DNA from: Spirogloea muscicola
Taxonomy: Eukaryota; Streptophyta; Zygnematophyceae; Spirogloeales; Spirogloeaceae
DNA: 44,885 bases
Assembly (NCBI GenBank): GCA_009602725.1
Contig: WELB01000070.1
Location: 451,228 to 496,112, forward strand
Direction: 5' to 3'
The translations under genes and the position numbers were made by a program. Of this stretch, positions 3,385 through 31,851 are shown piece by piece (the first letter of the stretch is position 1; each line of letters starts with the position of its first letter). The notes below the pieces were generated by a model. That model saw nothing but the letters and a program-made list of their open reading frames with translations. It was not told where the DNA came from and ran no database searches.

Positions 3385-6300
3385 ATGGCGACCGCCTCTG
3401 GTACGTAGCTCCACCTTTGACCCTTCTTACGCATCTAGCTGGCAGGGCCATGCCTGCTGCCGTCGAAACTTGCGACTAGATGCTCCGTCTCTGCGGCATG
3501 CGGTACGTGCGCGCACCGCGCGTCTCCGGGACACTTGCGCTGTTGCGCTAAACGCTCCTCTTGCTCCTATTGCAACGACGCCTGGTGCAGCGTCATTCAA
3601 GTCGCGAGAGGACCATCGCAAGCAGATCGAACTCGAAGAGGCCCGGAAGGCCGGTCTCGCTCCTGCGGAGCTCGACGAAGATGGAAAGGAGATCAACCCG
3701 CATATCCCACAGTATATGTCCTCAGCACCCTGGTACCTCAACGCCGAGCGACCAGTAAGTGCCACCACGTCAGAACTTTTGCTTGCTAGGTCGCAAAGGA
3801 CCAGGGTGCTAGTCATGACGAACTCAGTAGTATAGCAAACTTTCCTTATGGGTTCAGCAATTGTCAACTCCCGTCCTTTGTGCAACAGAGTCTGAAGCAT
3901 CAGAGGAACTGGAAGCAAGACCCCAACTACACCAAAGAGTGGTACGACCGAGGCGCCAAGACTTTTCAGGCCAACAAATACCGAAAGGGCGCCTGTGAGA
4001 AGTAAGGATCTTCTTTGTCCTAGTGCAGGGCAGCAATCAGAAGACCTCTCAAGCTTTCCTTCTCGTAGCTTCGTCATGCTAATATTGACAGTAAACATCG
4101 TAAGGTCTCTCCATAGCAGGTGCCAACCAGGAGTCACGTTATAAGTTTCTCGCATGTCACCTTACTGTTGTCTTTCTTGGCGTATACCCAGCTGCGGCGC
4201 CATGACACACGATGTGAAGGGTTGCATGGAGAGGCCACGAAAGTTGGGTGCGAAGCACACCAACAAGCACATCGCCCCTGATGAGAAGGTTGAGCAATTT
4301 GAGCTCAATTTCGAGGGAAAGAGGGACAGATGGAATGGGTATGATGCAGCAGCATATTCCAGAGTCATTGACTCATATGAACTACGTGATGAGGCCCGGC
4401 AGAAGTATCAAAAGGAACAGCAGCTGAAGAAGCTCACTGAGAAGGTGAGTGTGCCTATACGAGACTGGCTACGTATTTGTGGACAGTCTGCAATATGGCT
4501 TGTGTCTCCAAGACCTTGTCTTTACTTCACTTGCTCCTGTCGAGCATGCACATGCAAGCGTGCTTGCTATTCGAAGGGCCTCGATCAGATTCTTATTGTT
4601 GGAGACCTGGATATTGCTGTGTTTACGTCAGACTTAAAAAATGGCTGATGTTTTGCTTAATTGGCGCAATCTAAGATTTGAAACAGGCTTTCCCCTTAGG
4701 CCGCCTGAGAAGTTGTTCTATATACTATATACTTGGTGACACGGTGCACATTATTTTAGCTGCTGAAGCTCTCCAGCTCTGATATAATAAGCACAAGCTG
4801 CACCTTCTGAGTTGTAGGGTGCTGCAAAGGAAGGCGAGGAAGTCGACGAGGAAGGACTTGGGGAAATCACTGAGGAGGATGAGGCAAAGGTGGATGAGAG
4901 TGAGCAGATGGATTTTGCCAAGGTAGAGAAGCGTGTGCGTACTACAGGTGGTGGAAGCACAGGAACTGTGAGGTGAGCCAGGCTGATAAGTTAAAGTGGC
5001 TCATTTGAGGGAGAGAGATTGTGCTGCTTGATGACAAGGACAAGGTCTTGTTATACATTTCTGCTATCGTATCTTGGTATAGAAGTGTGCAGATGCACAG
5101 AGTTCCAAGTCATGTGGACAAGATGTCTGCAAGATGCTCAACTCACACACTGCTGCACTACCTTGTGCTTCTAGAAACCTACGTATTCGCGAGGACACAG
5201 CCAAGTATCTCCTCAATCTGGATGTCAATTCAGCTTACTATGACCCCAAAACACGCTCAATGCGGGAGGATCCCAATCCTGGCAGCGACGCCAATGATCG
5301 TTTCTACATGGTATGCACGGCTGCTTATGTCACGATTCTTGTATTCCGAAGGGGTTGGGGGCTAGGCAAACTTCCAGATCACAAGTCGTTCAAGGTGGTT
5401 CAAGCTGTGGCTGAAGAGCCTATATTGTCAACGTAAACACTGACAAAGCTTTTGCAGCAGCTAGTGACCAACTGCTTTCCGCTGAGAGCTTTTAACTTGA
5501 GGTTCTTCCTATATGTTTACAGGGTGACAATCAGAATAGGCTGAATGGACAAGCCAGCGAGCACCGGCAGCTTAACATCCACGCTTGGGAAGCCTTTGAG
5601 AAGGGGCAAGATGTACACCTGCAGGCAGCTCCCTCGCAGGTGAGCTCTTGCTAGTGGTTCCGCATTGCTGTTTGAAGCCAAGCCCTAGTCAGGCCTTGAA
5701 GCTGTCAAGTGTCATCTGTATATTTATTTGGCCTTGAGAGGTTCTTTAGGTCTTGAAGGGGGGATGGTTTTCTTCCCGGTGACTCCTCACTGACAATTGC
5801 GCTCGATGGAAGCACTGAGCTGAACCACTAACATCATTGGCAGGCGGAGCTCCTGCACCGTGAGTTTAAGATTAAGAAAGAGTCGCTGAAACACAACATC
5901 AAGGACAGCATCATGGAAAAATATGGGAATGCTGCCTCCACTGAGGTATTGCCAGAAGAACTTCTCCTGGGCCAGACCGAGAGGATTGTGGAGTACGACC
6001 GCGCTGGTCGGGTTGTCAAGGGGCAGGTGCATAACCCTTTCTTCCCTGAGGCTTTATGGGTGTCGTCACCACGCTGTATGACCGTGATTGTAGTTGCAAC
6101 TCGTTGGGTTCACATGCAGTTGTGATGCATCCGTACTTCTCAACAGCTATGTAGAAGTTAGGGGGGTTTAATTTGATGTGGCCACAGACAAGGAGCTGTT
6201 GAATGAGCAACCATTGATTTTCTGACTTTTGGATGGCAGGACAAGGCTATTGCAAGGAGCAAATATGAGGAGGATGTATACATAAATAATCACACCACGG

Positions 6301-16997: not shown

Positions 16998-17120
<123 letters not shown>

Positions 17121-17163
17121 NNNNNNNNNNNNNNNNNNNNNNNNNNNNNNNNNNNNNNNNNNN
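17121..17163. other. assembly gap (43 N)
   Basis: Undetermined bases. Sequence on either side cannot be assumed to be in register. Confidence 0.99.
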
Positions 17164-17299: not shown

Positions 17300-17650
17300 A
17301 TGGGCGGGTTCCTGCGGGAGGGCGGCGGCGCTGCCGTGGGGCCGGCGTTGTTCGGCCTCGAGGCGCTGCTGCAGCTGCACACACACCACCAGCACCACGC
17401 CGCCGCCGCCGGCCCCGCCGTCAAGGCTGCGCCGCCGCCCCCCCGGCCGCCCTCGCCCTGCCGCCCCGCCATGCCGGACGCCGTGCCGCAGCAGGAGGAT
17501 GGCGACGAGGTGTGGGATCCGCCGGCCGCCGAGGCCGTCGGTGCTGCCGCTGCTGCCACCGCCAGTGCGAGCGCCATTGCGCCCCCGTGGTTGCCATTCG
17601 CCCTGCCATACGTGTCGAGGCCGATTTCCCAGGCGGCGGCTGCCGGCGGA

Positions 17651-20826: not shown

Positions 20827-23800
20827 TCACAGCCTGCTCTGGCATGGCAAAGTGCCAAGGTGCCTTACTCGGTCTCTCAAAATAAACTTCTGTATCTTGC
20901 CTGTGGAAGTCTTTGGCAGCTCCCCAAAAATGACTGACTTGGGAACCTTGTAATGAGCCATATGGGCACGGCAGAACTCAATCAATTCCTTAGCTAGAGC
21001 CCCTTGAGATACGGCAGGAGACGCCTCCGGGCTCCTACTTTTGGCATCATGGCAGTCTTTAAGGGCGACAAATGCGCAGGGGGTCTCGCCCCAGGTGTCA
21101 TCTGGCCTGGCGACAACGGCAGCCTCTAGGACTGCAGGATGCTTGTACAACGCGCTCTCCACCTGAAAGAGCATTGGATGCTGGTTTGATTGGCAAAGCT
21201 TGAGTTTTGCGCGCTACCCTTGCCCAGTGACTAGCTTGAAATGGGTGGCAGCCTGCATCACGAGAGCATCAGCCTTCATTACGAGAGCATCAGTCTGCTG
21301 AATGGAGTAGGTCTTATGAACAACCTCCAAGCTGCTGATGTTCTCCCCCCCTGAAATAATGATATCTTTGCTCCTGTCCATAATCTCCACATAACCGTCA
21401 GGGTGCATGACAGCCAGGTCACCAGAGTGTAACCACCCTCCCTGGCAGTCATCAATGCAGTGTATGCACGAGGTTAGCTTTCAATCACTATCATAACCAC
21501 CTCGCCTGAGCAAGATTGCTAGCTAGTAAGCTGACAATATTGTTCATGGTTGAGCTTCGAAAGTTACACAGACCTTTGAACTTTTATTTTGCAACTGCAG
21601 CAGACCCATCTCAACTGGGCCAGGCTGCTAACAACAAGTGTGGCACCACCACAGGAAGCACGGCAGTGACTGATAGTTAGTCAGTCAATTTGGTCATGGG
21701 TTTCAACCTTTGTGGCCTCCCTTGTAGCACTCTCGTTCTTGAGGTAGCCCTTCATCGTCACGTTGCCCCGAAGCATTATTTCCCCAATAGACTCACCATC
21801 CGCTGGCGCGGGCTGCATAGTCTTTGGGTCCATCACCTCCATACGAAAGTGGCCAAGATGGCACACGCCCTGCAAGATGGATCAAAGACAATAGGAGGCA
21901 GGTCAGCAGAAGAACACCCTCGAGTCGAGTTCTTGGATGGATGGAGCAACTGTCATCTCCGTCTTGCTTGTTAACGGTGCCTGCAAGTTGGTACCGAATT
22001 AGGACAAGGTTGACTGGTCAAGGGGAAGACCAGAAGTGTCCCACAGTGAGGAAAGGAGGCACTCGAAGATGATGCCGCAACTAAGACGCCTCTAGTGAAG
22101 AGCATGGAAGCAATTAGCCAAGGACCTGGCGAGCCTTGAGTCTTCCTCGCTCCCCTGCAGGGAGGGAGTCCCACTCATCTTTCCAGACGCACATGACGCA
22201 AGGCCCGTACGTCTCTGTCAAGCCATACGCGTGGAGAATGTTGAACCCTATCTCCTCAACTCTGCGAATGACTTCCGAGGGAGGAGCTGCCCCCGCTGTC
22301 ATGACCTCCACAGCACCGTGCATCCGCCCCCAATCCGCAACCCCCGCGTTTGCGAGCATGTTGAGCACAACTGCCGAACAAATAGGATGCAGACAAGGTT
22401 ACTGGCTTGTGAGGGCGAGCAGTCGTGGCTCCTGCAGCTGACCTGACGAGCTTTCAGCTGCGCTTGCCAATCAGGCGGTAAGGCATCCCACTCGGCCTTC
22501 CAGACGCAGACGCAGGCCGGCCCCAAAGTTTCCGTCAGGCCATACGCGTGCGTGACGCAGAAGCCGGCGGCTTTCATCCTGGTGAGTATGGCAGGTGACG
22601 GCGGAGCCCCCCCAATGAGGACATCCACTTGCTTGCACAGTTTGCCAGAGCCCCAAAGGGAGCTGGCCAGCATGTTGAGCACAACTGTTCAAAAGCCACC
22701 ACTACTCTGTATCACCACCCGCCATCTCATCCTGCTGTTTGTTGCTTACTACCAGTTGCCTGGTCTCTCCAGACTGACAATGTGTACTCTACACGGTCAC
22801 TCCAGATGTGTTGCATGTGAAGCTGATGCTCGATGGCTGTACTACGATACGGGAAGCCTTCTCGTCTGAGTCCTGTGACATGACCCTTCAAGTTCTTGCA
22901 CAAGGACGCCATGTTATCGACTTCACAGAAGCATCAAAATTGGGGTGAATGCAGTGAAAGCATCGAGACATCACCTGGAGCTCCACAGAAGTGCGTGACT
23001 TTGTGCTGTGCAATGGCTGCAAATGTACAGAACGGACACATGGCAGTGCTTTGTCAGATGTTATAAGGTGCAATGCTAAGGTCTCATTGAACGTCACCGC
23101 ATGTGGCAACTTCCAGGCCACGGGCCACTGCTGGCTTGACGAGATGCTGCCTCTTCCAAAGCCCAACTCGTACACAGTGTTAAGGAACATGTCAGCCAAG
23201 AAACATGAAGCAGAATATGACCAACAACGATGAGGACCCTTTACCTGCGTATACGATTTCAGCAGTGACATTGCGGATGCAGATGTTGGTGCCGGCCAGC
23301 GCCGCGAGGGTCCATGGGAAGCACCATCCATTGCAGTGGAACATGGGCAGCGTCCACAGATACACAGCGCCAACCCTCATCTCCCAGCTGAGGGCGTTGG
23401 CCAGAGCGTTCAAGTAAGCCCCCCGGTGGTGGTACACAACGCCCTTTGGCATTGACGTTGTACCTGACGTGTAATTCAACGCAATTGCCTGCCACTCGTC
23501 TTCCGGGAGGTTCCAGGCATACTCCTGATCCCCTTCTTCGAGGAACGCCTCATACTCTGTGTCTGATGCCTTTAATGGGTAGTCCTCTTGACAACCACCA
23601 GCGACATCCTTGTCCTGGATGACCACAATTGGAGGCCATCGTTGCCGGTCCTATTTTTCCAGTCATAGGCAGGACCCTGTCAGCAAGCCAGTTATCCAGC
23701 GCATTCACCCTACTGGTCCATGTGCATGCCAAGATTGTATTTGAACCTCCTCTCTCTTTCTGGGCTAGAGGATGCGTTCAGCATAATGCTTGAATACCTG

Positions 23801-24848
23801 TTGATAGCCAGACAACCCCTAGCAGTCAGCAAGGCGTGCAGGCTCATACATAAAGACGCCCAAAGCATAGAGGTGATAGCGATTGGTAAATGGTTCGACA
23901 AGCAAGTGTCAAGTAATGTTTCACAGTATGCATTGATGGCGAGCAATCCACCCTGGGCCGTCATCAACCTTGGTGAGCAGTTGCAGCGCGTCCGTGACGA
24001 GCTTGAGGAAGCAGGAGTCTACAAATATCAGCTTCGCTTCTCCGTGGTCTAGGAAGTGGGCAACGGTGGGAGAATCAAGGCGGAGGTTGATGGAGTTGAG
24101 CACCGCCCCCGCCATTGGCACTCCAAAGTGCGCCTCGTACAGTGCTGGGATATTAGGAGCAACAAAGGCCACCTGTCACTTGCGGCAACTTTGTCAGATA
24201 TGCATCGCTGGTGCTGAATATGTGCCAGCAAGGGGGAATGCCCAGCATGCAGACACATTCTCTTGACAAGCCTTGCCACCCCACATGAGCCAGCAACCGG
24301 CTGCGCCGCCCCATCGAGTACTGGGTGCGGAAGGCAGCACAGGCTCGACGTCACATGCAGTGAGCGCGTTCTTCCCTTCTACATCTGCTGCTGCATGAAC
24401 TCCTCAGACCGTCTGCTCAGCTGGGTGCTCTGAACAAGTTGTCCTCGAAGTGGGACCATGGCGAGCAGCCATAGCTGAGCTTGCTGATGCACACTGGCAG
24501 ACCCGCTTCAACACCCTCAGTGCGAGCGACGGGGCATGGGGGGTGAAAGAGAGGACCCAACAAGGGCAGCATGGCGGCGGAGGTCACCGTGTGCCCGTCG
24601 CCGACGCCGCGGCGGCGCAGCGCGGAGGCCATACGGCGGGCGCGCGCGAGCTCGTCGGCCCAGGTGAGGACGCGCGAGCCGTGGACGACGGCCGGCCGCG
24701 TCGGGAAGAGGCGCGCCGCACGCTCCAGGAAGGCCAGCGGCGACAGCGCGACGTGGTTGGCGGCCGACCTCGCCAGCCCGGCCTCGTACATGCCGCCGCG
24801 CGCCGCCGCTGCCTCCGCCGTTGCCGGAGGCTGGCGAGCTTCCGCCAT
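20827..24848 (-). CDS. acyl-activating enzyme (AMP-forming acyl-CoA ligase), peroxisomal type
   Basis: The enzyme would adenylate a carboxylic acid with ATP and pass it to CoA. It matches the plant AAE1/BZO1-like group. Exons in transcript order: 24848-24588, 24172-23969, 23650-23245, 22836-22801 (36-nt microexon, tentative), then EITHER 22684-22443 (A) OR 22370-22126 (B), then 21869-21708, 21441-21325 and 21162-20827. Isoform A is 587 aa and B is 588 aa, normal for the family. Seen in order: [20 protein letters not shown] (near residue 35), [20 protein letters not shown], the ATP loop [10 protein letters not shown] (216-225), [20 protein letters not shown] (about 348-355 in A), [11 protein letters not shown] (438), [20 protein letters not shown], the catalytic lysine motif [12 protein letters not shown] (K565), and C-terminal SRL, a canonical peroxisomal signal. 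ATG 24848 is the first in frame; a second ATG (24791, [14 protein letters not shown]) fits the family start even better. All introns are GT-AG and phases agree. Confidence 0.92.
22126..22370 (-). other. alternative exon B of the acyl-activating enzyme
   Basis: Length 245 nt. The acceptor is tgttcggcag and the donor CAG|gtcctt. Its end phases are identical to exon A. It encodes [14 protein letters not shown]..., [30 protein letters not shown] and LKARQ. By eye about half the residues match exon A. Only 72 nt separate it from exon A. If both exons were joined, B would be read in the wrong frame and stop after about 25 codons. Confidence 0.85.
22443..22684 (-). other. alternative exon A of the acyl-activating enzyme
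   Basis: Length 242 nt. The acceptor is ttttgaacag and the donor CAG|gtcagc. It begins with two bases completing a codon and ends on a complete codon. It encodes [14 protein letters not shown]..., the [10 protein letters not shown] motif, [19 protein letters not shown] and LKARQ. It has no internal stop. Confidence 0.85.
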
Positions 24849-31707: not shown

Positions 31708-31851
31708 NNNNNNNNNNNNNNNNNNNNNNNNNNNNNNNNNNNNNNNNNNNNNNNNNNNNNNNNNNNNNNNNNNNNNNNNNNNNNNNNNNNNNNNNNNNNN
31801 NNNNNNNNNNNNNNNNNNNNNNNNNNNNNNNNNNNNNNNNNNNNNNNNNNN
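31708..31851. other. assembly gap (144 N)
   Basis: Undetermined bases within a very GC-rich stretch. Reading frames crossing it are not reliable. Confidence 0.99.

Follow-up and report, generated by a model that had tools for sequence, protein, structure and literature searches.

An acyl-CoA synthetase gene with two tandem versions of an internal exon, probably used one at a time in an alga

Could a single algal gene produce two acyl-CoA synthetases by exchanging one internal exon for another? The question is raised by a locus in the window, the whole stretch of 44,885 nucleotides analysed here. A sequence-only reading of this DNA had noticed two tandem exons, here called A and B, and had proposed that each transcript carries one or the other. 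We placed the gene around the two exons, followed the pair through the genome and compared both versions with their bacterial relatives and with known cases of exon swapping.

A synthetase gene with two versions of one exon

Exons placed by homology and by their splice borders make up a complete acyl-CoA synthetase gene on the minus strand of the window, from 24848 to 20827. Its parts, read in the direction of transcription, are the following.

Exon 1, 24588..24848, minus strand: 261 nt, constitutive, with the ATG at 24848 (homology model; frame intact in three genomic copies)
Exon 2, 23969..24172, minus strand: 204 nt, constitutive (homology model; three-copy comparison)
Exon 3, 23245..23650, minus strand: 406 nt, constitutive, with the TSGTT P-loop and the MFHCNGWC stretch (homology model; three-copy comparison)
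Exon 4, 22975..23016, minus strand: 42 nt, upstream splice partner of A and B, ending THFCGAP/G (homology; three-copy comparison)
Alternative exon A, 22443..22684, minus strand: 242 nt, 81 aa, derived and fast-evolving, with Leu or Phe replacing the bacterial Tyr
Spacer between A and B, 22371..22442, minus strand: 72 nt, of equal length in all three copies, with 5 of 72 columns variable
Alternative exon B, 22126..22370, minus strand: 245 nt, 82 aa, nearer to the bacterial family than A
Exon 6, 21708..21869, minus strand: 162 nt, downstream partner common to A and B
Exon 7, 21325..21441, minus strand: 117 nt (homology model; three-copy comparison)
Exon 8, 20827..21162, minus strand: 336 nt including the stop, with the protein ending in SRL in all three copies

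The predicted protein has 589 residues with A and 590 with B. Like the bacterial synthetases of family NF006020/PRK08162, isoform B is a full-length member of that family, scoring 839.4 bits over the whole protein, above the curated cut-off of 677. The A segment (151 aa) reaches 187.4 bits and has NF006020 as its best family, and the same family comes out best when the exons are taken with their flanking coding sequence (3.4e-55 for A, 8.6e-60 for B). The Pfam domains AMP-binding (PF00501) and AMP-binding_C (PF13193) are both over cut-off, with 251.7 and 78.9 bits in isoform A and 250.7 and 78.9 bits in isoform B. Among solved structures, isoform B is best matched by the long-chain fatty acid-CoA ligase 1ult (2.7e-73), which we take to be the Thermus enzyme ttLC-FACS. 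We assume that the gene is of the plant acyl-activating-enzyme type, beside PRK08162. The C-terminal SRL is presumably a PTS1-like signal, and to judge from this terminus the synthetase is probably peroxisomal.

A and B are diverged versions of one exon, lying in tandem, both with AG/GT borders and identical at 40 of 81 aligned residues, LKARQ included. They share their phase, one base in and a whole codon out, and so form a pair in the sense of tandem homologous exons with compatible phase. Here the sequence-only reading had been accurate: its coordinates for A, B and the 72-nt spacer are exact, and it had described both exons as needing one upstream base and ending on a whole codon. In all three copies, a transcript containing only A or only B keeps an open frame to the end of the gene, while inclusion of both meets a stop once 23 codons of B have been read, and skipping of both meets one 25 codons beyond the junction. 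The earlier claim that the frame is lost when both exons are included or both are skipped is thereby borne out, down to the stop in the A–B product. The upstream junction needs correcting, however. It had been put at 22801, whereas homology places the end of the partner exon at 22975; as an exon end 22801 was rejected, the region around it being intron with small length differences between copies. Apart from this misplaced junction, the frame logic, the retention of the pair in three copies and the constraint described below give good support to the proposal of mutually exclusive use.

Three genomic copies and constraint on both exons

The genome holding the window (153 Mb, 471 contigs) was searched for A-like and B-like exons. 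The pair was found at three loci: on C70, the contig of the window, on C1 and on C159. No other A-like or B-like locus was found among the candidates, all of which were scored (8 of 8 and 7 of 7), the only further hits being two weak matches with E values of 0.09 and 0.88. A search with family NF006020, in which 10 of 83 candidates were scored, recovered the three loci together with one more distant match on C7. The loci are collinear across much of the 30 kb compared per contig, with gaps and scattered repeats: positions 17409–39182 of the window align to C1:785001–815000, and positions 6004–38339 to C159:6001–36000. Blocks covering the gene are 88.6–90.5% identical between copies, and the seven other introns show 8.5–13.2% divergence and 8.6–11.8 indel events per kb. 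Exon lengths (242 and 245 nt), the 72-nt spacer and the AG/GT borders are the same in all three copies, and neither A nor B carries a stop or an indel in any of them. The family scores of both exons and the recurrence of the pair in three collinear copies argue that it did not arise by chance.

The three copies belong to one genome and probably go back to a shared multiplication, and therefore do not count as independent species. The genome itself is probably triplicated. PF00501 matches across the genome also seem to be grouped in threes and, by eye, the 92 GRAS matches often are too. A whole-genome triplication is reported for the zygnematophyte Spirogloea muscicola (PMC7994812, PMC11547041). 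The genome further contains 68 matches to chlorophyll a/b-binding proteins and nine expansin matches. One of the chlorophyll a/b-binding peptides has as its best match a chain named LHCI-2 (9vfj, 419 bits over two stretches), followed by 7xqp (343 bits) and by 6kac (321 bits); our impression is that land-plant-like chains outscore those of Chlamydomonas. Within the green lineage, GRAS domains mark the zygnematophytes together with land plants. The host is probably a zygnematophyte, perhaps S. muscicola; if this species is the host, the exon pair predates the triplication.

Selection on each exon was estimated as pN/pS pooled over the three copy pairs, with exons 2, 3, 6 and 7 as the reference and exons 1, 4 and 8 left out. 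The pooled values were 0.31 (A), 0.22 (B) and 0.14 (reference exons), A thus standing about twice as high as the four other exons. These ratios come from small counts, the pairwise changes being 19 synonymous and 18 non-synonymous in A and 17 and 12 in B; a value of 0.63 for B between C70 and C1 was obtained on six changes. We then ran 5000 simulations on the three-copy tree in which A and B evolved neutrally, at the rate of the introns. The expectation was 26.3 variable residues for A and 27.0 for B against 8 and 6 observed, and no run was as low as the observed number for either exon (0/5000 each). Stops and indels were jointly absent in 0.36% of the simulations for A and 0.58% for B. Both exons are under protein-level constraint. 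From the simulations and the pN/pS values we conclude that neither exon is decaying, which agrees with what had been noted from the window and extends it to three copies free of stops and indels.

The A and B versions have not been homogenised. In an alignment of the six sequences over 82 columns, 39 columns are identical throughout and 40 have no residue common to the A and B sets (one of them a gap column). At fourfold sites, the joint test of A and B gave 9 of 87 variable against 27 of 132 (p 0.06), and extra synonymous constraint is not claimed. The conservation of the spacer is only suggestive, as 42 of 1534 windows in other introns are as low as its 5 of 72 variable columns or lower.

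Origin of the pair and its place in the substrate pocket

The tree and the conservation profile were built from 80 bacterial loci, kept out of at least 593 confirmed stretches; the tree has few columns and so weak resolution. In this tree A and B are sisters with respect to the 80 bacterial relatives (support 89/80), and the branch leading to A is about three times longer than that leading to B (1.59 against 0.53). Between A and B, pS is 0.71 and pN 0.32, with synonymous differences near saturation. Each of the 80 relatives encodes the segment in one continuous frame and in a single version; unlike these bacterial NF006020/PRK08162 synthetases, the algal gene has two versions of the segment, of which A is without Tyr359. 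We infer that a single internal exon was duplicated long ago, giving the tandem pair.

The two versions differ in how much of the bacterial pattern they retain. Of the 27 exon columns conserved at 90% or more in the 80 bacteria, the window copy of B matches 24 and that of A 20. A has lost N312, A330, P335, V338, E343 and Y359 (window copy), B has lost T350 and A380, both of which A retains, and the two differ from the bacteria alike at 305. By these residue matches, B is the conservative version and A the remodelled one. Position 359, which directly follows YGLTET, is Tyr in all 80 bacteria and in the three copies of B, and Leu, Phe and Leu in the copies of A; Pro335, likewise present in 80 of 80 bacterial relatives, is Ser in A. 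The C159 copy of A has Glu at 343, and Asp at 346, where 75 of the 80 bacteria have Gly. Having departed from seven of the 27 conserved columns and lost this Tyr and Pro, A could make an enzyme that is weak or serves another use. Pattern searches of IMG/VR returned no relatives of A or B.

To locate the swapped segment in the fold, pocket positions were mapped in the numbering of chain 3a9u, through a by-eye alignment on the GGAP and YG[LM]TE motifs. Four of the five published substrate-binding positions of Populus tomentosa 4CL1 map inside the swapped exon, as G331, G354, G360 and P361 of isoform B. A and B carry the same residue at each of the four, and it is at neighbouring positions (329, 330, 333, 335, 359, 362, 363 and 364) that the isoforms differ. 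With four mapped positions inside it, the exon covers much of the pocket wall. Its content is thus as the sequence-only reading had described it: the segment carries YGLTET and, by this alignment, positions of the acyl pocket. A change in substrate preference between the A and B isoforms is plausible.

The gate of 1ult is formed by the MFH..W stretch of that enzyme (PMFHVNAW). The algal stretch that aligns to it sits in constitutive exon 3, and the exchange of A for B is therefore not a gate switch of the ACSL kind. Acyl-CoA ligase diversity elsewhere usually stems from separate genes. We consider the chances about even that this peroxisomal gene, in an alga close to land plants, is a two-enzyme system selected by splicing, in which exon A replaces the Tyr after YGLTET, remodels the wall beside it and so gives the same enzyme body a different acyl range that has been kept since before the triplication.

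Splicing choice, competing explanations and precedents

The signals around the two exons differ. The acceptor of A has 7–8 pyrimidines in 20 positions and that of B 14–15; low pyrimidine counts are seen at the acceptors of exons 2 and 3 too (7–10 of 20). At 72 nt the spacer is shorter than any other intron of this gene, the range elsewhere being 140–434 nt. No sign of competing RNA structures was obtained from intron/spacer duplexes, which were no better than letter shuffles in nine of nine comparisons (33–89 of 100 shuffles as good). A perfect 8-bp stem, GCAGCTGA/TCAGCTGC, at 22461–22434, encloses the donor of exon A, and none of the three copies differs in it. With z scores of only -1.01, -0.02 and -0.98, and with a donor at exon 7 that is closed to a similar degree (mean unpaired 0.21–0.33 against 0.29), the stem does not stand out. 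Separately, the first 16 nt of A (22684–22669) and of B (22370–22355) are identical in all six exons, reading TTGTGCTCAACATGCT, despite the near-saturated synonymous sites. This TTGTGCTCAACATGCT start is perhaps a splicing signal common to A and B.

In the mechanism we propose, A and B would be spliced mutually exclusively to yield two isoforms. B would act as the default exon and A as a regulated exon that needs help, as its weak acceptor and the spacer suggest. The short 72-nt spacer would hinder the joining of A to B, and nonsense-mediated decay would clear the wrong combinations. Since the exchange affects 81–82 residues that contribute to the acyl pocket wall and include YGLTET, the isoforms may have different acyl preferences or kinetics. 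Taken as a whole, the explanation by a probably peroxisomal synthetase, an old exon duplication, mutually exclusive A and B and differing isoforms is one that we regard, on the sequence evidence, as likely.

What sets A apart from B can also be read in other ways. Replacement of Tyr359 by Leu or Phe and of Pro335 by Ser, on a branch three times longer than that of B, would also be expected if the A form were translated and catalytically impaired or regulatory, rather than an enzyme for an alternative substrate. Yet A keeps YGLTET and 20 of the 27 highly conserved columns, and its AMP-binding Pfam score stands beside that of B (251.7 against 250.7 bits); we think this account unlikely, though worth keeping in view. 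A role for A mainly in switching expression off is less probable again. B would then be the working exon, and transcripts containing both exons would be degraded because of their stop, a form of regulated unproductive splicing, while protein made with A alone would be scarce or of no importance. Inclusion of A and B does lead to an early stop, and A is the derived copy, with a weaker acceptor and without residues that all 80 relatives carry. However, amino-acid conservation would serve no purpose in a poison exon, whereas A has 8 variable residues where 26 are expected and a pN/pS of 0.31, maintains an intact frame without stop or indel in three copies, and keeps YGLTET, GP, CVWK.EW and LKARQ (EW and the W that precedes K being present in all three copies).

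Tandem exon duplicates commonly decay, which makes a non-functional relic of the duplication a natural thing to consider for one of the two exons. This is disfavoured to the point of being very improbable, as both are intact and constrained in all three copies and none of 5000 neutral simulations was as conserved. An artefact of the assembly or of haplotypes, in which alleles or paralogous exons were placed side by side, is likewise disfavoured and has a negligible probability: the window does contain N gaps and the region does occur in three related copies, but the arrangement of A, 72 nt and B is found on three separate contigs that differ by about 10%.

Exon swapping in acyl-CoA synthetases is already known from ACSL1/ACSL6, and the algal case uses a different segment. 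In the human and mammalian ACSL1 and ACSL6 genes, homologous exons of the gate domain are used alternatively (Soupene and Kuypers 2006, PMC1543647). The likeness lies in an AMP-forming acyl-CoA synthetase gene with alternatively used homologous exons; in ACSL the swapped motif is linked to the entry of fatty acids, and an aromatic residue (Phe/Tyr) distinguishes its versions. The ACSL enzymes nevertheless belong to a long-chain animal family and exchange a gate motif of 26 residues, whereas the algal swap would involve 81–82 residues including YGLTET. Forms lacking both exons are also described there for ACSL, while in the algal gene skipping both breaks the frame. The sequence-only reading had known of no described case in green algae. 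In the literature found, of which coverage was partial, no exon pair is described for the acyl-CoA ligase family of algae; the mammalian analogue had, however, been missed.

Within the green lineage, the closest parallel in arrangement is cyn23 of Volvox carteri, whose mutually exclusive exons 4 and 5 were tested by RT-PCR (PMC4378016). It too has two alternate homologous exons, in its case of equal length and with differences near a binding site. In contrast to this cyclophilin-related gene, with exons of 106 nt and 13 differing residues, the algal gene encodes an acyl-CoA ligase with exons of 242 and 245 nt in which about half of the residues differ. The peroxisomal FACS g1889 of Polytomella, which carries a PTS1, is presented as the prime candidate for butyrate activation (PMC9637915). 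It resembles our gene as a green-lineage fatty acyl-CoA synthetase with a PTS1-like end, but in the text covered no exon pair is described for g1889. What has been described for a Chlamydomonas AMP-binding gene is an alternative 3' site rather than an exon pair.

If expressed as we propose, the algal gene would represent another, apparently independent exon swap that diversifies an acyl-CoA synthetase, in another clade and another part of the pocket. Acyl specificity could be mapped with it, since nature has exchanged 40 positions in an otherwise constant protein, and mutually exclusive splicing in streptophyte algae would gain a compact model.

Three further features of the window were recorded. 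At 16998–17163, 123 consecutive A run into an N gap of 43 bases, which probably marks an assembly edge, and a 144-base N gap lies within a GC-rich stretch at 31708–31851. On the minus strand, at about 30172–30000, an open stretch running from RARWTDEMRMQFKAAMAQVGG to TISQIKSFLQKYRASHG lies within a Gln-rich frame; by eye, we take it to resemble a DNA-binding domain of the GARP/MYB type.
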